From positions 1-34,921 of the IMG/VR virus record IMGVR_UViG_3300042564_000660: a DNA stretch of 34,921 bases. One strand, given 5' to 3'. Made by a program: the position numbers and the translations under genes. The stretch comes from a virus. The notes under the pieces were generated by a model, which ran no database searches, was not told the DNA's origin, and worked only from the letters and a program-made list of their open reading frames with translations. Of the stretch, positions 10,094-32,578 are shown piece by piece (position 1 is the stretch's first letter; each line of letters begins with the position of its first letter).

Positions 10094-10242
10094 TACTTGC
10101 CCACCGCCTTTTTATGATTAGCTTTTGCACATTTTGGGCATACAGTATTTGTAAAATAACCCAAGTTATCTTCGTGACCACAAGTTGCTTTTAATGTGAT
10201 GATTTTATCTTCAGACCCAACAGTCATAACAATAATTTCCAT
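10093..10242 (-). CDS. 49-residue zinc-binding protein
   Basis: The likely start is ATG 10242, sharing a base with the preceding stop, rather than an earlier in-frame codon at 10284. The protein has CGH and CPKC about 16 residues apart, forming a Cys2-His-Cys or zinc-ribbon site after two beta strands. It is one of several tiny zinc proteins in this early operon. Confidence 0.7.
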   Translation of the reverse strand: MEIIVMTVGSEDKIITLKATCGHEDNLGYFTNTVCPKCAKANHKKAVGK

Positions 10243-10436
10243 TACGCACCAGCCACATAAACATTGTTGAAAGCTACTGCACAATAACTTTCCGCGTGGC
10301 TACATCCTGAGTGCGCCCATTCTTCTTGGAAAACGCCTTTAGCAACAGCCCGTTCCATAGATTCGATATATTGTTCTACCGCTTTTTCCCACTCAGGGCT
10401 TCCAACGATTGATTCCATCTGCTTTGTCCTTTTCAT
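10242..10436 (-). CDS. Hypothetical 64-residue protein, first gene of an early operon
   Basis: Starts at ATG 10436, which follows a perfect hairpin (10442-10457) in the leader. The first 40 residues are amphipathic helix (SPEWEKAVEQYIESMERAVAKG); the rest has GCSHAESYCAVAF, which could hold a metal or simply fold. Unrecognised. It follows a 119-base non-coding region, so it should be promoter-proximal. Confidence 0.7.
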   Translation of the reverse strand: MKRTKQMESIVGSPEWEKAVEQYIESMERAVAKGVFQEEWAHSGCSHAESYCAVAFNNVYVAGA

Positions 10437-10441
10437 CTCTC

Positions 10442-10457
10442 GGAACTTCTTAGTTCC
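10442..10457. promoter_or_regulatory. Perfect hairpin in the leader of the 64-residue gene
   Basis: GGAACT and AGTTCC six-base arms enclose a four-base loop and end five bases before the ATG at 10436, where the ribosome site should be. It could be an operator or an RNA hairpin that controls translation. Confidence 0.5.
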
Positions 10458-10555
10458 CCTTACATGTATAACATTACGGCATTAAGCAGCTTTTGTATGC
10501 CATTTAGGGCATGTTTCTATAACATTTTGATAACGGAAACAATCGAACAAATGTT
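10458..10555 (-). promoter_or_regulatory. Early regulatory region downstream of whiB
   Basis: This AT-rich gap holds TGTTATAC (10473-10466), the related TGTTATAG (10524-10517) and an ATGCC/GGCAT inverted repeat (10497-10512). TATACA- and TATAGA-like -10 boxes are present, but no convincing -35 could be paired with them, so the exact promoter is not fixed. Confidence 0.45.
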
Positions 10556-10891
10556 CTAATTTGTGTAAGCGTAAACCCTAAGAAAACGGCGTTTTTCAAG
10601 CCTGTCTTTTGGCAATTTAGATTTGCTAAGTTTGTAACGATCATCCGGTGTCATGCCACCCCACATGCCCCATTTTTCATCTATACCAATCTCTAGACAA
10701 AATCCGACAACCGGGCATTCTTCACATAATCGTTTAGCTATTGCGTATAGGTGGGGTTCTTCATCTTCAGGAAAACAAGTATCGGGGTGAGCATCTCGGC
10801 AAGCAGCTGAATACATCCACGAATCCGGCGCAGTACAGATTAGGCACATTCCTGAATCCAGCCACGCTTCATGGTCGCAATCTTTGAGCAT
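10556..10891 (-). CDS. WhiB-family Fe-S transcription regulator
   Basis: This 111-residue protein shows the classic layout: C31 (AACRDAHPDTCFPED), C56xxC59 (LCEECP) and C65 (FCLEIG) for a [4Fe-4S] cluster, then KWGMWGGMTPDDR at 73-85, the turn that contacts the primary sigma factor, and a basic C-terminus. It also has an N-terminal CDH...CLIC pair (residues 5-19), unusual for WhiB and possibly an extra zinc ribbon. It probably reprograms host or phage transcription early in infection. The regulatory gap at 10437-10555 follows it. Confidence 0.93.
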   Translation of the reverse strand: MLKDCDHEAWLDSGMCLICTAPDSWMYSAACRDAHPDTCFPEDEEPHLYAIAKRLCEECPVVGFCLEIGIDEKWGMWGGMTPDDRYKLSKSKLPKDRLEKRRFLRVYAYTN

Positions 10892-12013: not shown

Positions 12014-12318
12014 TACAGGTTTTCTTGAAGCTCTACACGCGACCACTTTAAGCGCAAAGCATCTACAACTGCTTGACGTTCTAATTCTGGCAAATTAGCG
12101 ATTTCATCTAGGCTAACTTCAACCATTTCAGAACCACAAAGGAACTCTAGAACGGCAACCATGACTAGCTGGTTAGCATCGAACTCTGGTGTATCTATGT
12201 TGTCTACGATTTCCCAAACCTTTGCCCAATCAACTGGGGTGACTGCATCGTGATTCTGAAACAATTTGTGTTCTGCCATCCAAGTTGTATGTACTAACTG
12301 TTCGCTTGGTGTTCTCAT
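12013..12318 (-). CDS. Hypothetical protein between RHH protein and initiator
   Basis: A 101-residue acidic protein starting in the RHH stop (ATGA) and ending in the initiator start (TAATG). It is mainly helical (WAKVWEIVDNIDTPEFDANQLVMVAVLEFL) with no motif I recognise. The coupling on both sides suggests a replication or regulatory partner. Confidence 0.7.
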   Translation of the reverse strand: MRTPSEQLVHTTWMAEHKLFQNHDAVTPVDWAKVWEIVDNIDTPEFDANQLVMVAVLEFLCGSEMVEVSLDEIANLPELERQAVVDALRLKWSRVELQENL

Positions 12319-12470
12319 TGCTTTGCTCCTGTCATTAGTTCTATTGCTGATCTAATTACTTGACTTACATTTGCGTTATGTTGATGCGCCCATTGTCTAA
12401 CTGCAAGCATCTGCTCATTGTTAAGACGTAGCGCAATCATGTTTTCTTTGTTTTCTTTTTCGTCAGCCAT
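12315..12470 (-). CDS. Ribbon-helix-helix DNA-binding protein
   Basis: The likely start is ATG 12470, with AAAGGG six bases upstream; the longer frame from 12572 would run back through a hairpin terminator. The 51-residue product has an N-terminal charged arm, a strand (MIALRLN), a helix (NEQMLAVRQWAHQH), then NANVSQVIRSAIELM, the ribbon-helix-helix (CopG/Arc-like) pattern. It probably represses its own or a neighbouring promoter. No toxin gene is recognisable next to it. Confidence 0.75.
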   Translation of the reverse strand: MADEKENKENMIALRLNNEQMLAVRQWAHQHNANVSQVIRSAIELMTGAKQ

Positions 12471-12498
12471 TGCTAACCCTTTCAATAGTCTTTGTATG

Positions 12499-12527
12499 AC
12501 GATAAAGGAACTGTCTAACAACCGCAA
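12499..12527 (-). promoter_or_regulatory. Candidate promoter of the RHH/initiator operon
   Basis: TTGCGG (12527-12522) and TATCGT (12504-12499) are 17 bases apart, between the hairpin at 12541-12572 and the ATG at 12470. Another pairing, TTGTTA with CATACA, is also possible. Confidence 0.35.
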
Positions 12528-12540
12528 ATAGGCAAAGTAA

Positions 12541-12572
12541 ATGCCACCCGACAAAGCATAAGCAGGTGGCAT
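12541..12572 (-). terminator. Stem-loop after the 73-residue gene, terminator-like
   Basis: Perfect eight-base arms ATGCCACC/GGTGGCAT enclose a 16-base loop, followed in the transcript by TTTACTTT. The broken T-run makes it weaker than the other terminators here. A second inverted repeat, TCTAGG/CCTAGA (12579-12595), overlaps the stop codon just upstream and may be an operator. Confidence 0.55.
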
Positions 12573-22409: not shown

Positions 22410-23135
22410 CTAATTGACAGACATACCTGCCATTAACTCTAAGAACTCACGCCTAATGTCTTGGCGTATTTCTTTTTGACTCATTCCATTGTACCTAGAT
22501 ACGTCAATGTCCTTAAATTCTATTTCACATTTAGCGCATACTTTGGCTAGTGTGCATCTACATTCCCAATGGTCTACTGCTCGTTGCGGGTCACGCTTGG
22601 TAATGGTTACTGGTGGTCGGTCTGTGTATCTAAACTCAGGAGCTTGCATAATCTCGCCATGACCACGCAAGGTTTGATAATCAGCGTTAGGTGCGTGTTG
22701 TGGCGCAAAGAAAATACGAGCAGGGTCGCTAGTTTGTGGGTCACCAGCAATGTCTAGGAAATCGTGCATCTGTTTCCAGACTGAATACCATTGGTGGCTT
22801 GGTACGGCTTCGTCAAATGGGATAACTATGTGCCAGTGCTGGTCATCTTCTTTATGGCTGTAAGTCGTGTAGGCAATGTATTCATAACCAGTTAATTTAT
22901 CTAACGTATTGGTTAGGGCTTCACCATCAAGATCAGCAACAAACGCATTGACAGCAATGACATTTTTATTACCTCTAAAGCCATTTTCAACGTATTGAAC
23001 CGGGCTGTATAAATAACCTTTGTATTTGTCCTCACGTTTAGCGTGATGTGAAAGTAAAGCTACAAAGTCAGCCCAAGAATCTGCATAGGGCTTGGGCTTG
23101 TTGTCTTTGACAGACCACCATTTAACTGCGTACAT
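22410..23135 (-). CDS. Primase-like (AEP-type) protein inside the tail module
   Basis: 241 residues, unlike its structural neighbours. Segments VNAFVADLDGE (Asp-x-Asp-type metal site), YEYIAYTTYSHKEDDQHWHIVIPFDEAVP (His before a strand) and SDPARIFFAP recall archaeo-eukaryotic primase/RepB-type phage and plasmid primases. The C-terminus has a CRC...CAKC cluster that may bind zinc. No helicase domain is attached. It has its own promoter-like sequence and no ribosome site, and it sits between a tail gene and the tape measure, so it may be an acquired gene. The fold call rests on motif reading only. Confidence 0.5.
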   Translation of the reverse strand: MYAVKWWSVKDNKPKPYADSWADFVALLSHHAKREDKYKGYLYSPVQYVENGFRGNKNVIAVNAFVADLDGEALTNTLDKLTGYEYIAYTTYSHKEDDQHWHIVIPFDEAVPSHQWYSVWKQMHDFLDIAGDPQTSDPARIFFAPQHAPNADYQTLRGHGEIMQAPEFRYTDRPPVTITKRDPQRAVDHWECRCTLAKVCAKCEIEFKDIDVSRYNGMSQKEIRQDIRREFLELMAGMSVN

Positions 23136-23141
23136 ACTTTT

Positions 23142-23170
23142 AATGTACTAGATGTTATACGCAATGTCTA
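23142..23170 (-). promoter_or_regulatory. Promoter and inverted repeat before the primase-like gene
   Basis: TAGACA (23170-23165) and TACATT (23147-23142) are 17 bases apart. The -10 box ends six bases before the ATG, predicting a leaderless transcript. CTAGA/TCTAG arms (23148-23171) frame the spacer, which also holds TGTTATAC on the plus strand (23153-23160), so an operator is likely. Confidence 0.55.
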
Positions 23171-24915: not shown

Positions 24916-25520
24916 TACGCAAAATTACGCATTCTGCGATAAGGCGAAACTAATTGAGCAACGTCTGGGTCAATGTCCCGAGTTACGGAAATGGCTCCAA
25001 GATCGCCAAAGCCAGCTACGCCAAGAGGACTATCAAGTCGCTTAAAAATTCTGCTTGCCTGAATGATGCAAGCCTGAGTAATTGCAATTGGAACTGATGA
25101 CCAACCAAATACAGCAGTTAGTTTTACCAGTGCTTGTTCTGCTTCTACCGGGAATAGGTAGTTTTCAACAGCACGAATGCGTGTGTATGGAACAGCAAGG
25201 CCATCTACGTTTCCGTTAAGTGGTTCTAACTGATAATCACCAACAGCCCAAGTTGTATCAAATACGCCGTCACCACCTGATGAAGTTTGCAAAGTCAGAG
25301 CAGTTCCAGAAACGTCATCTATCTGAGTAATAAAAGAATCGTCTGCTGCATAATAGCGCGTAGCAGTTCCTGATGAATAGAAGTATCGCCCAGCATGTCC
25401 ATCAATAGCGCGTGATGCAGATTCAACAGCCATCTCAAGTAATGAGTCATCTACGGCATCTGAAATGCGTAAAGCTGCTTTTACTTGTGCAAGTGTGGCG
25501 TAGCCGTTTGTAATAGCCAA
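24915..25520 (-). CDS. Head-tail connector protein, gp6-like
   Basis: About 201 residues from TTG 25520, with AGGAG five bases upstream; the longer frame to 25568 would cross the leader. YATLAQVKAALRISDAVDDSLLEMAVESASRAIDGHAGRYF is the hallmark helical start of gp6-type adaptor proteins, which form the ring below the portal. The middle is strand-rich and the end has VTRDIDPDVAQLVSPYRRMRNF. It begins just after a terminator. Confidence 0.85.
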   Translation of the reverse strand: MAITNGYATLAQVKAALRISDAVDDSLLEMAVESASRAIDGHAGRYFYSSGTATRYYAADDSFITQIDDVSGTALTLQTSSGGDGVFDTTWAVGDYQLEPLNGNVDGLAVPYTRIRAVENYLFPVEAEQALVKLTAVFGWSSVPIAITQACIIQASRIFKRLDSPLGVAGFGDLGAISVTRDIDPDVAQLVSPYRRMRNFA

Positions 25521-25558
25521 AGAAACTCCTAAAGTCTTTACTATTCTATGACAGAGTA

Positions 25559-25584
25559 AAACCCCCAAATTTCTCTGGGGGTTT
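25559..25584 (-). terminator. Intrinsic terminator after the 134-residue gene
   Basis: Nine-base perfect arms (AAACCCCCA/TGGGGGTTT) enclose an eight-base loop, and the transcript continues TTTTA. It lies between the accessory gene and the connector gene. Confidence 0.85.
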
Positions 25585-26003: not shown

Positions 26004-26037
26004 TTTTTCCTCTTTTCCTTTGCTTTCCTACATAACT

Positions 26038-26066
26038 ATTGTGACAGTTTGTATAACAAATGTCAA
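26038..26066 (-). promoter_or_regulatory. Moron promoter 2
   Basis: TTGACA (26066-26061), 17-base spacer, CACAAT (26043-26038). The first 16 bases are identical to two other promoters in the window. The -35 box overlaps the stop of the 52-residue gene, and the target is the 134-residue gene. Confidence 0.75.
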
Positions 26067-26221
26067 GCTGATTTAACAGCCAATGCAAACAATATTTCTT
26101 GTGCAATTTGCTTTTGTTTTTTAGCCATTTCTTGCGCTACTTTATTAGCGACTGCGTAAGCCTTTTCAATCATTTCAGGGTTAATTTCCCATTTCTGTTC
26201 AATGGGCATTTCACCAATCAT
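26063..26221 (-). CDS. 52-residue accessory protein
   Basis: A short frame from ATG 26221, preceded by a purine-rich GAGAGAGGTGAGAG ribosome site, to TGA 26065-26063. After an N-terminal stretch (GEMPIEQKWEINPEM) it is one long Ala/Lys/Gln-rich amphipathic helix (EKAYAVANKVAQEMAKKQKQ), possibly a coiled coil. It has its own strong promoter 30 bases upstream. No function can be assigned. Confidence 0.7.
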   Translation of the reverse strand: MIGEMPIEQKWEINPEMIEKAYAVANKVAQEMAKKQKQIAQEILFALAVKSA

Positions 26222-26251
26222 TTCTCTCACCTCTCTCTGTCCTACATAACT

Positions 26252-26280
26252 ATTATTTCATTATGTATAACAAATGTCAA
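26252..26280 (-). promoter_or_regulatory. Moron promoter 1
   Basis: TTGACA (26280-26275), 17-base spacer, AATAAT (26257-26252); the start would fall near 26245, then GTAGGACA and a ribosome site for the 52-residue gene. It shares the core with promoters 2 and 3 and the leader motif TATGTAGGA with promoter 2. Confidence 0.8.
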
Positions 26281-26298
26281 GGGTAGAAACGCTTGATT

Positions 26299-27165
26299 CT
26301 ATTGACTTTTTCGCTCTTTTAAGGCCCTACGAATGCCTTCACGCAAACTGATCTGGGGAACAAAATACTGGTGCGATAGGTGGGGATCACCAACCCGATA
26401 CTCAACCCCGGTAGGCGCGGTGACTATGTGGTTAAACATAGGATTCATACCGGCTTCTTCACAGATCATTTGAGCCAAGTCATTAAAGCTAGTGGCTAAA
26501 CCAGAACATAAATTGAATGTGCCGGTGTAGCCCGTCTGAACGTGCCAAAGCACAGCTTGAACAATGTCCTCAATGTGGATGAAGTCGCGCACCTGTTCAC
26601 CGTTACCCCAGATATCAAAGACTTCTACCCCGGCTAAAGCGCGGTCAATAAAACTAGGAAACGGGTAATCAGCATCTTGGTCTGATCCGTAACCACTAAA
26701 AGGTCTAAACACAAATAAGTTAGTGCCTTCCAAGAATTGCGCTAGGTATTCCCCAGTAAGTTTTGCCCAGCCATAAGTTAGGTCAGGATTTAGAACGGCA
26801 TCTAGGTTAATGTCGTACTCAGCTAACTGGTAACGGCGGTGCGAATTCTGCAACACAATTGGGTAAGCAGCTGAACTAGAGAAGTAAACCGTATTTATTG
26901 GTTTTGTTCTTTGCACCCAGTTAAAGAATTCAGCATCTATTGACAAGTCAGTTGCCACGCTTAACGGCTCACCTTCGATAGTTGCTCGACCACCAACAAT
27001 GGCTGCTAAGTGAATTACCAAATCAAACTGTTCATCGTTAGTCTTGAAGAAGTCCCGGCAGTCGTTGCCGTCTTTTAGGTCAATGCCCGTAATTTCACTA
27101 TCTGGTAAAGCCTTAACAAAGTTGCGACCAACAAAACCCTTATGCCCAGTAATCAGTATCTTCAT
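26299..27165 (-). CDS. NAD-dependent epimerase/dehydratase (extended SDR)
   Basis: 288 residues from ATG 27165 (TAATG with the glycosyltransferase). A Rossmann start ILITGHKGFVGRNF gives GxxGxxG for NAD(P); HLAAIVGG follows, the catalytic Ser region is YFSSSAAYP, and YGWAKLTGE provides YxxxK. QVRDFIHIEDIVQAVLW is the usual C-terminal nucleotide-sugar domain segment. It resembles GDP-fucose-synthase/UDP-glucose-epimerase relatives and likely makes or modifies a nucleotide sugar used by the three upstream glycosyltransferases. Confidence 0.9.
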   Translation of the reverse strand: MKILITGHKGFVGRNFVKALPDSEITGIDLKDGNDCRDFFKTNDEQFDLVIHLAAIVGGRATIEGEPLSVATDLSIDAEFFNWVQRTKPINTVYFSSSAAYPIVLQNSHRRYQLAEYDINLDAVLNPDLTYGWAKLTGEYLAQFLEGTNLFVFRPFSGYGSDQDADYPFPSFIDRALAGVEVFDIWGNGEQVRDFIHIEDIVQAVLWHVQTGYTGTFNLCSGLATSFNDLAQMICEEAGMNPMFNHIVTAPTGVEYRVGDPHLSHQYFVPQISLREGIRRALKERKSQ

Positions 27166-27839
27166 TACCAAGCCTTGACGTTCTCAACATCGTTAGCAAA
27201 TTCTGTGGCTAGGTATTCAGCAAAGATAGCTTGATCGCCGTTGTGCATTTCTACGGTATTCACAGCTGCGTATCTTTCATCGTGTTCAGCCTTACCGTTT
27301 GTGTAGTGCAAGTGTTCAATGATTACCTCTGGCAAGTAGTTCACGTTCTCTAAGGCGTTGCCCATAGCAAGCCAATAGTTATCTAGGAACAAATGCTTTA
27401 GGGCTGGCGGTGACATAAAGCCAGTAGCCCTAATGATCTTGCTAGACATAACTACGGCAGTTGGCAGGTTCTCGCCTTGCAGTAGATCGTTGCCATAAGC
27501 AATGCCCGGCTCTGTGCCAATGGCTTCTGCAAGTTTGGTATCCCAACCACCAGTGCGCGGTAAGTGGTCATCACCCATAAAACAGATGTAATCATAGTCA
27601 GGCGCGAACCACAAAGCCCAATGGTTAAGAGTGCCGTTCATTCCCATACGGTCTGCAATGCAAACCTTGACGTTATCTAGTCCTGCCGTTTCGTGCATAA
27701 GTCCTTGATAAGTTTTAACATCATCTGCATCTATGGCAAAGATAACTTCTGTAAAGTCTGCCGTTGCATTTATCGCTTCAAACAAACGAATTGCATTATC
27801 GTTGCGACCACGAGTAGGAATAATCGTAAGCATTCTCAT
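27165..27839 (-). CDS. Glycosyltransferase, GT-A/family 2-like
   Basis: 224 residues. It starts LTIIPTRGRNDNAIRLFEAI, a GT2-type opening, with EVIFAIDADD and DYDYICFMGDDHLPR giving a DxD-like nucleotide-sugar metal site, followed by GGWDTKLAEAIG. The C-terminal part (NYWLAMGNALENVNYLPEVIIEHLHY) is the acceptor side. It is coupled by ATGA to the upstream glycosyltransferase and by TAATG to the epimerase. Confidence 0.85.
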   Translation of the reverse strand: MRMLTIIPTRGRNDNAIRLFEAINATADFTEVIFAIDADDVKTYQGLMHETAGLDNVKVCIADRMGMNGTLNHWALWFAPDYDYICFMGDDHLPRTGGWDTKLAEAIGTEPGIAYGNDLLQGENLPTAVVMSSKIIRATGFMSPPALKHLFLDNYWLAMGNALENVNYLPEVIIEHLHYTNGKAEHDERYAAVNTVEMHNGDQAIFAEYLATEFANDVENVKAW

Positions 27840-28639
27840 TGTTGCACCAATCTCCAGAAGGTATCCCCTGCGTTATCTATCATGTGTCTTAGGTGGTCTG
27901 CATCTTGCCAATCTTCAACTGATGTAATGCCTACCAATTCGTTAGTGTGAATCCTGCACCCAGATAACACAGCTTCCATAACTGCCCTGCATTCTGATTC
28001 AAAGGCTAACGGTAAATGCACAAACCATTCGCATCTTGCCATCGCATCTAGGACTTGCTCACGGGGTACGTTTGTCAAAGCCTTAAATTCATAACCTGCC
28101 TGTGCTGCCCAAGCGTGAGCTTTAAGTTTGCCTTTAAGTGGATGTTCACGGGCTGCCCACAATGCGTAAGGTTTCTTGTCCATGTGGTCATAGCATTTAC
28201 TGGTATTAAAGTAGCTTAGAACTTGCGCGGTCTTGCGTGGCTTTGCCCAAGATAATTCTCTGCGCATATGTGCCGGGGTATGGGTTACGAATAAGCGACT
28301 ACCTGCAATCAAGGCCAACAGCCCTGCGCGTGGTGTTTGTAGGTGATGCACAAATACGAACGGGTCATACTCACTAAGTCGGTTCAGCTGCTGGTCAGAG
28401 AACGAATCTGTTCCTGTTACAACTATCGAGTCAAATTGGTGTATGTCATGTGTATCGAATGTGTATGGGGTGACAATCTCTATCTCAAAGCCCAACGGTG
28501 CTTGCAAGCGGTATTCGTAGTCTGACATTTCTGCGCCACCTGCGAACTGCCCCGTGAATAGCCCTGACAGGCTCTCAGACGAACGTAGAGCCACGTTAGG
28601 GTCATTCTCTATGTGATGTGTGTACCAGCCTATTTTCAC
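27836..28639 (-). CDS. Glycosyltransferase, GT-B-like
   Basis: 267 residues from GTG 28639, overlapping the previous stop (GTGA). It has GGAEMSDYEYRLQAP near the N-terminus, strands at FDSIVVTGTDSFS and YDPFVFVHHLQ, and a C-terminal FESECRAVMEAVLSGCRIHTNELVG that resembles the GT4 donor site with the first acidic residue kept. It is shorter than usual GT-B enzymes (350-400 residues), so the domains may be reduced. Confidence 0.75.
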   Translation of the reverse strand: MKIGWYTHHIENDPNVALRSSESLSGLFTGQFAGGAEMSDYEYRLQAPLGFEIEIVTPYTFDTHDIHQFDSIVVTGTDSFSDQQLNRLSEYDPFVFVHHLQTPRAGLLALIAGSRLFVTHTPAHMRRELSWAKPRKTAQVLSYFNTSKCYDHMDKKPYALWAAREHPLKGKLKAHAWAAQAGYEFKALTNVPREQVLDAMARCEWFVHLPLAFESECRAVMEAVLSGCRIHTNELVGITSVEDWQDADHLRHMIDNAGDTFWRLVQQ

Positions 28640-29817
28640 GCTGTCGGTCTTTCTGTGCCTTTTGTCCCTAATACTTTGATAGCAGGTTTCCAGTATTGGT
28701 CAAAGACGGTATCTGCGTTATACGCCTTAGCAAAGTCTTGAGCCTTTTGAGAACGACCACGCCCACGCTGATACGCCTGCTCTAGCGCATCCACAATGCC
28801 GGGAACGCTAGGCATATGAAACCAACTTGACTGCGGTGCATCCCATAGTGGCTGACCTTCTACAAGCCAACCGTCACCAACAAGTTCAGTTGAAGCTGCA
28901 AACTCAGAAACAATTACAGGAGTACCGCAAGCCTGCGCTTCTATGGTTGGCACTCCAAAGCCTTCGCCGTAGCTCGTAGCAAGCAATACATCCATAGCCG
29001 TATAAAGCGTTGCAAGTGTTGGCTGATCTATTCCAGTTCTAAGAACATAAGGGTCTACGAATGCGTACTGATGTTCTTTAATACCGCATGACGTTATTAG
29101 TTCTTGTAGCTTGATGCCACCAAGAGAACCGTTGGAATCTGTGTGCAGATAAAGAACTACGTCATCGTGCATTTGTGCAAACATAGAGAACGCCAAAATG
29201 TTCTCGCCAAATGCCTTACGATTAGGGCTTACGCCTTTATTAGCTGCGTTCATTCCAACAATGAATACATCTTCACTAGCACCAATAAAATCCCTGCCAG
29301 TAGTTCCCTTGTGGCGTTTCATTGGCTTAAAACTGGATTCAATGGCGTGTGGAATGTATAAAGATTCAATTCCTACGTTTTCAAGCATGGCTTGCCCGTA
29401 TTCGCTCATGGCAATAGGGGTAACAAAGTCATTGCGACACCATGCAGCAACTTGTGGTGGTGCTGGTATGTGATCTATTGGAACCCAACTTGCAACATTC
29501 CAGTCAGACCAACGCTTACCCTTAAGAACCCACGCATCGTAAAGAGTAAAAAGAATGTGATTTTGCTTTGGGTTATGTTCAGTCCAATTAAACATATGAG
29601 CTGGAATAATATCATTGGAATACATGTCTGCGCCACGCTGATAAATCGGGATGCCGTTCCAGTCGGTATTACTGCCTTCAAGCCCGTAGTTGTTAAAGAT
29701 CGCTACGTTGTGACCCATTGCTTTCATACGGCTAGTTACTTGAGCCGTTTGCATTCCGTATCCAGTATTCGCCCAAGGCGCGTTAGATACCCAACCAATA
29801 CATAAAGAATCCTGCAC
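28636..29817 (-). CDS. Glycosyltransferase, GT4 family
   Basis: 393 residues from GTG 29817 with AAGGA upstream. The N-terminal domain has IGWVSNAPWANTGYGMQTAQV; the C-terminal donor domain has SYGEGFGVPTIEAQACGTPVIVSEFAASTELVG, the EX7E motif of retaining GT4 enzymes. Length and layout are complete. It is the first gene of the sugar cassette, just after the capsid terminator. Target could be a virion protein, DNA or the host surface. Confidence 0.9.
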   Translation of the reverse strand: MQDSLCIGWVSNAPWANTGYGMQTAQVTSRMKAMGHNVAIFNNYGLEGSNTDWNGIPIYQRGADMYSNDIIPAHMFNWTEHNPKQNHILFTLYDAWVLKGKRWSDWNVASWVPIDHIPAPPQVAAWCRNDFVTPIAMSEYGQAMLENVGIESLYIPHAIESSFKPMKRHKGTTGRDFIGASEDVFIVGMNAANKGVSPNRKAFGENILAFSMFAQMHDDVVLYLHTDSNGSLGGIKLQELITSCGIKEHQYAFVDPYVLRTGIDQPTLATLYTAMDVLLATSYGEGFGVPTIEAQACGTPVIVSEFAASTELVGDGWLVEGQPLWDAPQSSWFHMPSVPGIVDALEQAYQRGRGRSQKAQDFAKAYNADTVFDQYWKPAIKVLGTKGTERPTA

Positions 29818-29876
29818 AGATAATCCTTTGTTCGCAGATAAAAGAAACTTACCCTAAAGGTTGCTAAAACAAAAGC

Positions 29877-29912
29877 AGAACCCCACCAAGCCTGCGCTCC
29901 CGGTGGGGTTCT
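29877..29912 (-). terminator. Intrinsic terminator after the major capsid gene
   Basis: Perfect 11-base arms (AGAACCCCACC/GGTGGGGTTCT) with a 14-base loop are followed in the transcript by GCTTTTGTTTT. It separates the capsid gene from the sugar cassette. Confidence 0.9.
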
Positions 29913-29931
29913 ACGTTTTGGGGTTTCCTAA

Positions 29932-31122
29932 TTAGGAAGCTGCTCCAGCAAAGTACTTCACATGTGAAGTCTGGATTAGGTTTCCATCCACGCGCATTGT
30001 GGCGCGGAATGTAATTAGGTCGTTCTGGAATGCATAGTCATCAGACCGATCTAGGCGTAAGCCACCAACAGTGCGAGCATAGTAACTTGGCAAGTGACCA
30101 AAGATTACTGACTTCGCGCTTGTTGCTGGGTCTGCCATACCTGGGTTCTCAAAGATTGGGTAACCAAGCAATAGATCACGAGCATCAGCTGAAAGTGAAG
30201 GGCTGAACAGATACTGGCCTGCGTTGTCCTTCAACTTACGAACAGCAGAAATAGCCTTAGCGTTCATCTGCCATCCTGTACCCGGAAGTGTGCGACCTGC
30301 GGTATCAACGCTGTAAACCAAGTCAATTAGGTTGTCAGCTGTGAATGCGCCTGTTACGCCGGTTCCACCAGTGATTCCTGAACCAGCAGCAGTTACGATG
30401 CCTGTTGGCTGAACTGTTCCTGTTCCAGTTGTTAGTGCGCCATTGACTGCATAGCCAAGTGCGTTACCAGTCTGAGTTGCAAGGAATCCAAGAATGTCCA
30501 CGCCTGCATCTTCAACCATTTCTCTCGAAATCTGGGTGAGGAAACTGTACTTGTAAGCACCAAGTGTTTTGAAGGCGTTGAATGTTGGATCGCTCTCACC
30601 AATAGCAGCAGCTTCAGCAGAAACCGTACCAGTGCTGTATGCACTTAGTGAAGGAATCTGAAGGTTTTCACCACCAGCAGTGTTAAGGATTGTTGATGTT
30701 TCTAGCATTGGGCCAACGTGACGAGCAAGCATGATTACCTGATCGTAGAAAGAGGTCGGTACTGGTGCGCCAGTTGAACCCTTAGTTACGTCGCGCTTCT
30801 CGAACGAGTGGGAACGAATCTCACCACGAGCTAGGGAACGGATAAGTTCAGCTTCGTCAATTGCTGGAACAGCAACGGCTGGCTTAACTTGTGCTTCGAA
30901 ACCTGACATTGCTTCAGCAGCGCGTTCTTCGCGTTCTGCTTGTGCCTTCATGGTTTCCATTACCAATGAACGCTGATCAAGGTCTGCCATGATGCGGTCA
31001 TAGGTTTGGTTTTCTTCTGCGGATAGATCGCGCTTTTCAGCTGCTGCTGAATCGAGAAGAGCCTTAGCTTCTTCCCAAGCCTTTGCACGAGCTTCCGCTT
31101 GCTGACGGATGTAGTCAGACAT
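29932..31122 (-). CDS. Major capsid protein, HK97 fold
   Basis: 396 residues. The first ~110 are a charged coiled coil (RQQAEARAKAWEEAKALLDSA), the delta scaffold domain removed by the prohead protease. The rest has the HK97-fold markers VPTSFYDQVIMLARHVGPML, FKTLGAYKYSFLTQISREMVED, GWQMNAKAISAVRKLKDN and FENPGMADPA, then an E-loop/P-domain end (YARTVGGLRLDRSDDYAFQNDLITFRATMRVDG). It follows the protease and has terminators on both sides, so it may be a separate, strongly expressed unit. Confidence 0.95.
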   Translation of the reverse strand: MSDYIRQQAEARAKAWEEAKALLDSAAAEKRDLSAEENQTYDRIMADLDQRSLVMETMKAQAEREERAAEAMSGFEAQVKPAVAVPAIDEAELIRSLARGEIRSHSFEKRDVTKGSTGAPVPTSFYDQVIMLARHVGPMLETSTILNTAGGENLQIPSLSAYSTGTVSAEAAAIGESDPTFNAFKTLGAYKYSFLTQISREMVEDAGVDILGFLATQTGNALGYAVNGALTTGTGTVQPTGIVTAAGSGITGGTGVTGAFTADNLIDLVYSVDTAGRTLPGTGWQMNAKAISAVRKLKDNAGQYLFSPSLSADARDLLLGYPIFENPGMADPATSAKSVIFGHLPSYYARTVGGLRLDRSDDYAFQNDLITFRATMRVDGNLIQTSHVKYFAGAAS

Positions 31123-31167
31123 GTGGACTCCTAAAGTCTTAGATTGTATGAGGTCTTAAGTTTCTGC

Positions 31168-31203
31168 GTGGCTCCACGACAGTAAGCGCAATGGTGGCTC
31201 CAC
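31168..31203. repeat. Two direct copies of the dyad GTGGCTCCAC before the capsid gene
   Basis: Identical 10-base units lie at 31168-31177 and 31194-31203, 26 bases apart. Each is itself an inverted repeat (GTGG/CCAC). They lie in the capsid leader, 45-80 bases before the ATG, and could be activator or repressor sites. Confidence 0.55.
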
Positions 31204-31232
31204 TCAATCGCACAATTCAATTATGGCACAAT

Positions 31233-31270
31233 AAAAAACGGCCTAAATGCTTCCCCACATTTAAGCCGTT
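31233..31270 (-). terminator. Intrinsic terminator after the prohead protease gene
   Basis: A 13-base stem (AACGGCTTAAATG/CATTTAGGCCGTT, one G-U pair) with an 8-base loop is followed by TTTTA in the transcript. The rest of 31123-31283 holds the dyad repeats and no gene. Confidence 0.9.
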
Positions 31271-31283
31271 CTTTGTATTTAGA

Positions 31284-31991
31284 TTAAAACGCTTTAAGCA
31301 TTAAGTCAAGTTGTTTTCGCTTAATTTCTAACAGGTCAAAATTTTCAGTTTTATCTTCGCGCAACTTACCAACAACAGTTGTAAGAATTTCTGCTTGGCT
31401 TTCCGTTAGATTCTGACCTTCTTCTAGGCGAATCATGGCATCTGCTAAAACGTCTGCATCTACAAGGGTTCTAGTTGCCAGAATGTCAATAGTTCTTACA
31501 TCGGCAGTTGTAGCTTCATAGGCAGGAAAACCGGTAACAACGGAAACTTCGTGTAAACGAATTTGGTGCAGTTCACGAGTTGCGCCGTCTTGACTCCACT
31601 TATCACCATTGGGTGGAACGCTAAAGCCAAAGCTCATTGAGTGAACGTCACCACGTTGCATGAGAATAGATAAGTCTTTGCCACTTGTTGTTTCTGGCAA
31701 CTTTGCTTCTGCTAATAACCCGGTTGAATCTTCGATTAACTTCAAAGTTCCTGACCTCGTAGAAGCTAAAACATGATCAGTATTGTGATTCATAAACATC
31801 TTGACTTCATTGCGTGTTTTAAGAGAACGATTGAAAGCACCCTCACGAATAACTTCAGTGAATGGCAATGGCTCTGACGGGGAATTGAAAACGGCAGCAT
31901 AACCCCGGAATGTCATTTTGTCTGCACTTGCTTCACCGTCAAAATTTAATTCAAAATTGACTGGACTGTTTCTACGTTCAACGATTTTCAA
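31284..31991 (-). CDS. Prohead protease, HK97 gp4/U35 family
   Basis: 235 residues from TTG 31991, chosen because GGAG lies five bases upstream; a longer frame to 32036 would start inside a terminator. FRGYAAVFNSPSEPLPFTEVIREGAF is the family start, MFMNHN gives the catalytic His (H69) and GDVHSMSFGF the catalytic Ser (S118). The C-terminal 60 residues are helical. It cleaves the delta domain of the capsid protein encoded next. Confidence 0.93.
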   Translation of the reverse strand: MKIVERRNSPVNFELNFDGEASADKMTFRGYAAVFNSPSEPLPFTEVIREGAFNRSLKTRNEVKMFMNHNTDHVLASTRSGTLKLIEDSTGLLAEAKLPETTSGKDLSILMQRGDVHSMSFGFSVPPNGDKWSQDGATRELHQIRLHEVSVVTGFPAYEATTADVRTIDILATRTLVDADVLADAMIRLEEGQNLTESQAEILTTVVGKLREDKTENFDLLEIKRKQLDLMLKAF

Positions 31992-32034
31992 AATGACTCC
32001 AATTTTACTTAATCTGTTGTTTCTATTTTGGCAC

Positions 32035-32063
32035 AAAAAAATGACGGTATCTCTACCGCCATT
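32035..32063 (-). terminator. Intrinsic terminator after the 75-residue gene
   Basis: A 10-base stem (one G-U pair) with a GAGA tetraloop is followed by seven T residues. It isolates the small gene upstream from the protease gene. Confidence 0.92.
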
Positions 32064-32071
32064 CTATTTCT

Positions 32072-32299
32072 TTATTTAGAAGATGCTTTTATTTTGAAAG
32101 GTTTTCCAATTTTTTCCCCAGCAGGCATAATTGCAACAATCGAAGGATAAGGAGTTTCACCAAATTCCTCTTTTTTAGCAATTTGCTGATAAGTCACATA
32201 ACCGGAATTGCTTACTTTAATAACTTTGTAGAAATTGTAAGATTTTGCGCCATTACTGGAGTAAACAATCTGACCTACTTGTGGAGCAGGGGTTTTCAT
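32072..32299 (-). CDS. 75-residue accessory (moron-type) protein
   Basis: Basic, beta-rich small protein (QVGQIVYSSNGAKSYNFYKVIKV, then GYVTYQQIAKK) with a KAxGK-type Lys-rich end; an SH3/KOW-like barrel is conceivable. It lies between its own promoter (32330-32358) and a terminator (32035-32063), the classic layout of a moron. It has GGCGGTG as ribosome site. Its base composition is more AT-rich than the structural genes, suggesting separate origin. Function unknown. Confidence 0.75.
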   Translation of the reverse strand: MKTPAPQVGQIVYSSNGAKSYNFYKVIKVSNSGYVTYQQIAKKEEFGETPYPSIVAIMPAGEKIGKPFKIKASSK

Positions 32300-32329
32300 A
32301 TAATCACCGCCTAATTTGTCCTACGATTA

Positions 32330-32358
32330 ATTATCTCAAAACGTATAACAAATGTCAA
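32330..32358 (-). promoter_or_regulatory. Moron promoter 3
   Basis: TTGACA (32358-32353), 17-base spacer, GATAAT (32335-32330), then GTAGGACAAA in the leader. It begins two bases after the stop of the 72-residue gene and has the same 16-base core as promoters 1 and 2. Confidence 0.8.
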
Positions 32359-32359
32359 T

Positions 32360-32578
32360 CTAAAAGGCGTTAGGAAACAGGGTTTTTGCCACATTTGATG
32401 AAATTTTCACTAATGTTGGCTCACCTTCTGATAGATATTTGAAAAATAACTCTGATTTAAGCCATTTTCCTTCAGATTCGTTCCAGATTTCTTCAGCATA
32501 ATTAGTCGAGCTTGAATCATGCCTATAAATGTTGATAATTTTGTCACTATCAATTGTTGATTTTCCGTAATAGATCAT
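32360..32578 (-). CDS. 72-residue protein after the RelA/SpoT-like gene, immunity candidate
   Basis: An acidic, aromatic-rich small protein (IINIYRHDSSSTNYAEEIW, KWLKSELFFKYLSEGEP) with GAGG before ATG 32578. It begins 26 bases after the RelA/SpoT-like gene and before promoter 3, so it is co-transcribed with that gene. Immunity or antitoxin genes often lie exactly here and are small and acidic. No family is recognised, and the immunity role is an inference from position. Confidence 0.7.
   Translation of the reverse strand: MIYYGKSTIDSDKIINIYRHDSSSTNYAEEIWNESEGKWLKSELFFKYLSEGEPTLVKISSNVAKTLFPNAF

Follow-up and report, generated by a model that had tools for sequence, protein, structure and literature searches.

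Why should a phage carry three near-identical promoters, each with one small gene behind it, between the genes of its structural module? The question is raised by a 34.9-kb IMG/VR record (IMGVR_UViG_3300042564_000660; 34,921 nt, hereafter the window), in which these promoters, here called P1, P2 and P3, and the units that they head lie among genes for an S78 protease, an HK97-type capsid, glycosyltransferases, an epimerase and a connector. An earlier note on this DNA had taken them for a repeated moron cassette inside the head module, and had read the identity within their spacers as pointing to a common regulator or to recent spread of the cassette. Morons, as known from lambdoid and other phages, are extra genes with their own promoter and terminator that lie between core genes and are present in some relatives only. 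From a comparison with about 90 related phage contigs (80 capsid relatives fetched and scanned, 929 kb), we conclude that the three sites quite probably belong to a family of mobile moron cassettes that is specific to one phage clade.

The core of the three promoters, TTGACATTTGTTATAC, occurs exactly three times in the window, with 5' ends at 26066, 26280 and 32358 as the note had stated; we add that all three copies lie on the minus strand. No other 16-mer reaches three copies on a single strand of the window, and shuffled sequences gave a mean of 0.46 matches at up to 3 mismatches. All three promoters are predicted to consist of TTGACA, a 17-nt spacer and an extended -10 (TGn) with CACAAT, AATAAT or GATAAT as the -10 box, and GTAGG follows each of them, again in agreement with the note; they are the top three sigma-70-type matches within 20-35 kb. 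Each near-consensus predicted promoter stands directly 5' of one short gene (134, 52 and 75 residues for P1, P2 and P3, the second being 55 from a GTG start), and strong terminators end two of the three units, those of P1 and P3. The P2 unit has no terminator, and the stop codon of its gene (TGA) falls inside the -35 of P1, so that the units are packed head to tail. One could suspect that, in a genome rich in A and T, consensus-like promoters recur by chance, and the bare 16-mer does occur by chance in other viral contigs; of the 47 that carry it, most are unrelated and lack a promoter context, and the bare core is therefore not diagnostic. However, the threefold occurrence of a single 16-mer, the zero counts in controls and the strict link to accessory genes described below leave chance a practically negligible probability.

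Among the relatives, what is constant to all subtypes is a 7-bp box within the promoter spacer, which reads GTTATAC or GTATAAC (variants that differ in the inner three bases) and lies 6-9 nt upstream of the -10. The shared core of the note was thus upheld for this box, which is its invariant part, and not for the preceding TT, which varies. The box precedes nearly every accessory cluster, while upstream of core genes it was found nowhere: 0/81 for the major capsid protein, 0/53 for the connector, 0/47 for the tail tube, 0/41 for the tape measure, 0/39 for the epimerase, 0/30 for the portal and 0/25 for the large terminase. In the interval between the epimerase (the last sugar gene) and the connector, it was present at 24/24 occupied versus 0/27 empty sites (Fisher 4e-15, a p-value that overstates the evidence, since many loci are related). 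The cassettes between the capsid gene and the glycosyltransferase are on the opposite strand; there, the box was present in 21/23 occupied and in 0/55 empty intervals, the two misses being one error in an open reading frame (ORF) boundary and one site that was not truly occupied. A strict scan at the epimerase-site loci found terminators at 14 of the 24 occupied and at 1 of the 27 empty ones. As the occupied and empty sites show, the accessory genes are inserted between core genes and missing in close relatives, and the comparison supports the label of a repeated moron cassette. It does not support the restriction to the head module, as several relatives have additional units in their early region. 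Two other sets of apparent matches to the box were discounted: those upstream of GT267 (48/67), which are in-frame coding sequence (KAYNAD), and those near GT393, which belong to an adjacent divergent cassette.

The box is more strictly kept than the promoter around it. It remains exact in subtypes with diverged -35, -10, flanks and leader, in line with the note's claim of conservation beyond the needs of a sigma factor, and can be displaced by 2-3 bp. The motif T[TAG]GACAnn[TC]GTTATAC gave 39 matches in the 929 kb of relatives and 0 in the reversed control, and GACAnnYGTTATAC is present in 14 of 30 full relative records (control 0). G008 was rejected as a cassette-free case, as one unit with GTAATAC is present. 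Could the box simply be required by the host, as the target of a host transcription factor or of an unusual sigma-A contact in the actinobacterial lineage? Such a requirement would agree with the box being present in 9 of the 11 distinct full-consensus extended promoters found in relatives, and with the small repertoire of two sigma factors in Pontimonas, the host of the nearest cultured phage (PMC6106888). Against it, the motif combined with the leader sequence TAGGACA gave 7 scattered matches in 257 Gb of bacterial and archaeal genomes, none of them actinobacterium-titled, and the box is missing from the leaders of the phage's own capsid and connector genes; we therefore regard a host requirement as unlikely. 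An origin of the promoter motif with its TAGGACA leader from a host was likewise rejected, the combination being essentially absent from cellular genomes, and because of this near-absence the element is assigned to this phage clade.

Most relatives also have a hairpin in the leader, mostly of 5 bp and usually with a GNRA-type loop, which usually begins 12 nt past the -10 and is followed by TAGGACA and then by the Shine-Dalgarno sequence; there is no T run after it. In 14 distinct sequences, 98.6% of cells pair and 15 cells are compensatory, a covariation that was matched by 0 of 500 shuffles and by none of the slid controls. When leaders were selected by hairpin and TAGGA[CA]A alone, all 29 distinct contexts had the box; with further loci included the count was 30/31, the exception reading GTAATAC. 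A palindrome-like CTGACAAGTGTTATAC..TAGGACA match, identical in three larger unrelated contigs (L135, L136 and L137), has no obvious downstream gene and was treated as unrelated.

Units were found on both strands and at no fewer than four sites. Empty epimerase/connector sites read ...GCAGAACGCAAGTAGAATAG..AGACTTAGGAG, whereas occupied ones read ...GAGCGAAAAACCCAATARACACGCC-cassette-...TAGAATAG..AGACTYAGGAG, which defines an insertion interval. The left end AAAAACCC...ACGC also occurs on the other strand at the capsid/glycosyltransferase site; in all, three different sites have the common left end, with both strands represented. The left end of the P3 cassette matches, in register, that of the epimerase-site cassette of one relative, L090: the 32358 unit, at a third site, carries AAAAACCCTGTnnnnnAACGCCTTTTA, whose counterpart in L090 takes in the 3' end of the epimerase gene itself. 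Since the L090 sequence includes this 3' end, a phage resembling L090 appears to be the source from which the 32358 unit was copied. P1 has a counterpart in L005, L009 and L019, and P2 has syntenic copies in these three and in L083, L090 and L091. The synteny of P1 and P2 in L005, L009, L019, L083 and L090 would suit ordinary vertically inherited phage promoters, with apparent gain and loss due to gene deletion in relatives. This explanation is very unlikely in view of the opposite-strand units at the second site and the early-region units in other relatives, of the left end of another site's cassette in the 32358 unit, and of contigs that are 92-100% identical outside the unit and have different genes inside it.

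These last cases show that genes are exchanged behind a cassette. L131, L144 and L149 are 92-100% identical per 50-nt block over 700 nt upstream and have nearly identical cassettes, yet their first genes differ (67, 115 and 68 aa), after which identity resumes; in L149, the 68-aa gene is inserted immediately upstream of the 115-aa gene. A comparable swap behind near-identical cassettes separates L159 from L085 and L163. Behind P1, all four combinations of the 55-aa gene (present or absent) with a gene of the 134-aa or 132-aa type are found (window, L009, L019, L083), the 132-aa gene replacing the 134-aa gene in L019, L083 and L090; the two types have a short C-terminal DYFNV motif alone in common and may be distant homologues. 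The gene swaps, and the same left end at different sites, show the spread that the note had suggested. Unrelated cassette genes end in a common junction, GGTGCATAATG, in which the stop codon overlaps the start codon of the following gene, so that exchange may also take place at the 3' ends of cassette genes. This junction was seen in L130, L131, L138, L149, L164, L166, L099 and L101, and near 10251 (-) in the window. With cassette ends, leader and 3' junction also common to unrelated genes, and with long identical blocks around the swaps, the box might itself be part of a conserved recombination anchor, its identity kept by repeated copying of the promoter segment and no regulator being involved. 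A pure anchor, however, would not keep 7 bp exact while the -35, -10, flanks and leader diverge, and we consider an anchor improbable.

What, then, would keep the box? Positions of about -28 to -19 are hardly read by RNA polymerase. Because the box is conserved there and shifts of 2-3 bp are tolerated, we propose that it may serve as the operator of a DNA-binding protein, which would probably act as a repressor or a timing switch, a role to which we give a little less than an even chance; the tolerance for shifts would fit a repressor better than a spacer-bound activator. We likewise infer a common regulator for the cassettes. That GTTATAC/GTATAAC is the operator of a portable accessory regulon, whose captured genes join one expression programme at any site and on any strand, is a tentative proposal, which we hold to be possible rather than probable. 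A unit consists of a left end (AAAAACCC..AATARACRCGCC or relatives), a predicted sigma-A-type promoter with the spacer box, a short leader and a single small gene or a few of them; many units close with a terminator. Host RNA polymerase would read the units in either orientation, independently of the phage operons or the late programme, and genes parked in the late module could be expressed early or constitutively. Units come and go among the relatives, are copied to further sites and receive other genes; the route would most likely be homologous recombination within the shared cassette ends when relatives infect the same cell, and the hairpin would protect the mRNA or help ribosomes to gain access to it. 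Integron attC or dif-like sites were also considered, and were provisionally set aside.

Gain, loss, exchange and orientation independence of the units, with conservation of the box and of the RNA hairpin, are demonstrated in the relatives by sequence comparison. Several points weigh against the reading as mobile, commonly regulated cassettes. P1, P2 and P3 are promoters by prediction; ORF calls were mechanical, and many loci are from close relatives, so that the counts are not independent. The leaders of P1, P2 and P3 lack the hairpin, and for this reason the units of the window are classed, by their sequence, as a hairpin-less subtype. GTATAAC resembles a -10 box (TATAAC), and some of its matches may be ordinary promoters. 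Finally, we identified neither a regulator of the box nor a recombination enzyme. The GTATAAC copies 5' of two early genes, one of them C5-methyltransferase-like, were judged to be ordinary -10 boxes and left out. A WhiB-family regulator and a ribbon-helix-helix-like protein of the window are candidate regulators, neither of them linked to the box.

As for the cassette genes of the window, none has a clear Pfam or PADLOC family, and the P2 product has no Pfam or PHROG family. The 134-aa protein has weak, sub-threshold matches to LPD29 and phrog_10415, and distant relatives, by weak matches, in the Mycobacterium phages Phabba and Myrna. The 75-aa protein weakly matches phrog_37844; proteins of 108-116 aa that are distantly related to it are encoded at the same site in L019, L090, L091 and L111. 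An AlphaFold model (pLDDT 56) was too poor for a fold search. The window phage is small and has an HK97-type capsid, and no integrase was found among the genes scanned in this phage group. The nearest capsid among named phages, 45% identical, is that of Pontimonas phage phiPsal1, which infects a marine member of the Microbacteriaceae; its published description (PMC6106888) calls it lytic and gives it a circular map, and mentions no evidence that it integrates. The host of the window virus is therefore probably an aquatic actinobacterium.

The window also holds elements outside the three units (Table 1). The box precedes the 241-aa gene in 11 of the 11 relatives that have this gene, and its mRNA is probably leaderless. 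The early unit ends in the 3' junction GGTGCGTAATGG; with its -10 unclear, it is a doubtful, atypical member of the family. The same early variant, in which GTTATAC (GTAATAC in L176) is followed by a close GAACC/GGTTC-type hairpin, was seen in L168, L170, L174 and L176 and at 10420-10472 of the window, and in this variant the -10 may be formed by the box. Another leader (25520-25560 and 31120-31150, both minus strand), AAGACTTTAGGAGT after CATA[CG]AAT, is common to the capsid and connector genes and is possibly the late promoter of the phage itself; leaders of this type partly persist at empty sites. Upstream of the capsid gene (31140-31220, minus strand) lies a hairpin-forming GTGGAGCCAC..-type sequence (CTGTCGTGGAGCCACGCAGAA) that is conserved among relatives. 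At 29875-29914, 3' of the capsid gene, there is a strong terminator, whose loop GGAGCGCAGGC is kept in relatives while the stem varies; in cassette-bearing relatives it may serve both directions.

Table 1. Positions of the cassette units and of other elements in the window.
Feature	Positions	Strand	Details
P1	26038..26066	-	TTGACA-N17-CACAAT, extended -10 TG, spacer box GTTATAC 26051-26057
GTAGG leader of P1, GTAGGAAAG	26027..26031	-	
P1 gene, 134 aa	25599..26003	-	
P1-unit terminator	25559..25584	-	-17 kcal/mol (folded segment), then T4 (TTTT)
P2	26252..26280	-	TTGACA-N17-AATAAT, extended -10 TG, spacer box GTTATAC 26265-26271
GTAGG leader of P2, GTAGGACAGAG	26241..26245	-	
P2 gene, 52 aa (ATG at 26221) or 55 aa (GTG at 26230)	26063..26230	-	
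P3-cassette left end, AAAAACCCTGTTTCCTAACGCCTTTTAGA	32359..32387	-	overlaps 3' end of 72-aa ORF 32360-32578
P3	32330..32358	-	TTGACA-N17-GATAAT, extended -10 TG, spacer box GTTATAC 32343-32349
GTAGG leader of P3, GTAGGACAAA	32320..32324	-	
P3 gene, 75 aa	32072..32299	-	
P3-unit terminator	32038..32065	-	-14.8 kcal/mol, then T7
Reversed-box promoter	23142..23170	-	TAGACA-N17-TACATT, GTATAAC 23154-23160; 5' of 241-aa gene
Accessory 241-aa gene, family unassigned	22410..23135	-	before tape measure gene, some relatives only
Cassette-like early unit	10242..10472	-	GTTATAC 10466-10472, hairpin GGAAC/GTTCC, AAAAGGACAAAG, gene 10242-10436
WhiB-family regulator	10556-10891	-	
Weak CopG/ribbon-helix-helix-like protein (DUF6290)	12315-12572	-	

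In the literature searched, a scope outside which most subscription papers lie, we found no description of the present element. With morons it has in common an accessory gene with its own predicted promoter, placed between core genes and present in some relatives only; we know of no classical morons, however, in which a single promoter-leader cassette is common to several sites and genes, as it is here. The PeSL cassettes of T4-type phages were reportedly described by Arbiol et al. 2010 and Comeau et al. 2014. According to later accounts, PeSL stands for promoter early stem-loop and mediates gene shuffling (PMC4503421, PMC3950731). The mode of action of our units is closest to this system: in both, a conserved promoter unit tied to shuffling stands before small accessory genes and downstream genes are exchanged, here by swaps behind one cassette, and most relatives here have a stem-loop as well. 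The units are not PeSL members, because the sequences differ, the phages differ (this group is not T4-type) and the units of the window lack a stem-loop, a subtype that thus departs from the combination of early promoter and stem-loop. Also unlike PeSL, as far as its anatomy is given in summaries, are the spacer box GTTATAC, the covarying hairpin without a T run, the use of both strands and the location inside a structural module. In the haloarchaeal virus HGTV-1, a TATA-like motif and an inverted repeat reportedly stand before most ORFs of one genome half and have been suggested to drive shuffling (cited in PMC3950731); this is an archaeal virus with an archaeal promoter type, whereas here gain, loss and swaps are seen by comparison. 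The SAS/ESAS of cluster K mycobacteriophages, also an actinophage group, are likewise repeated motifs immediately 5' of many genes, half of them with an inverted repeat; SAS is located where translation starts, and ESAS, an imperfect inverted repeat of 17 bp, keeps to one gene family across genomes (PMC3203893). In our case, by contrast, the box lies in the promoter spacer, and near-identical cassettes have unrelated genes behind them.

Most phages of streamlined aquatic actinobacteria have yet to be cultured, and little is known of how they gain and express accessory genes. The promoter-leader signature, being diagnostic, would make such genes detectable in metagenomes from sequence alone and gather small ORFs without a name into a class, open to testing, of genes with a probable role in host interaction, while the strict conservation of a 7-bp box in the promoter spacer offers a direct route to its regulator. 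Shuffling via shared regulatory cassettes, as in T4-like phages and as suggested for one haloarchaeal virus, is seen here to extend to small actinophages.

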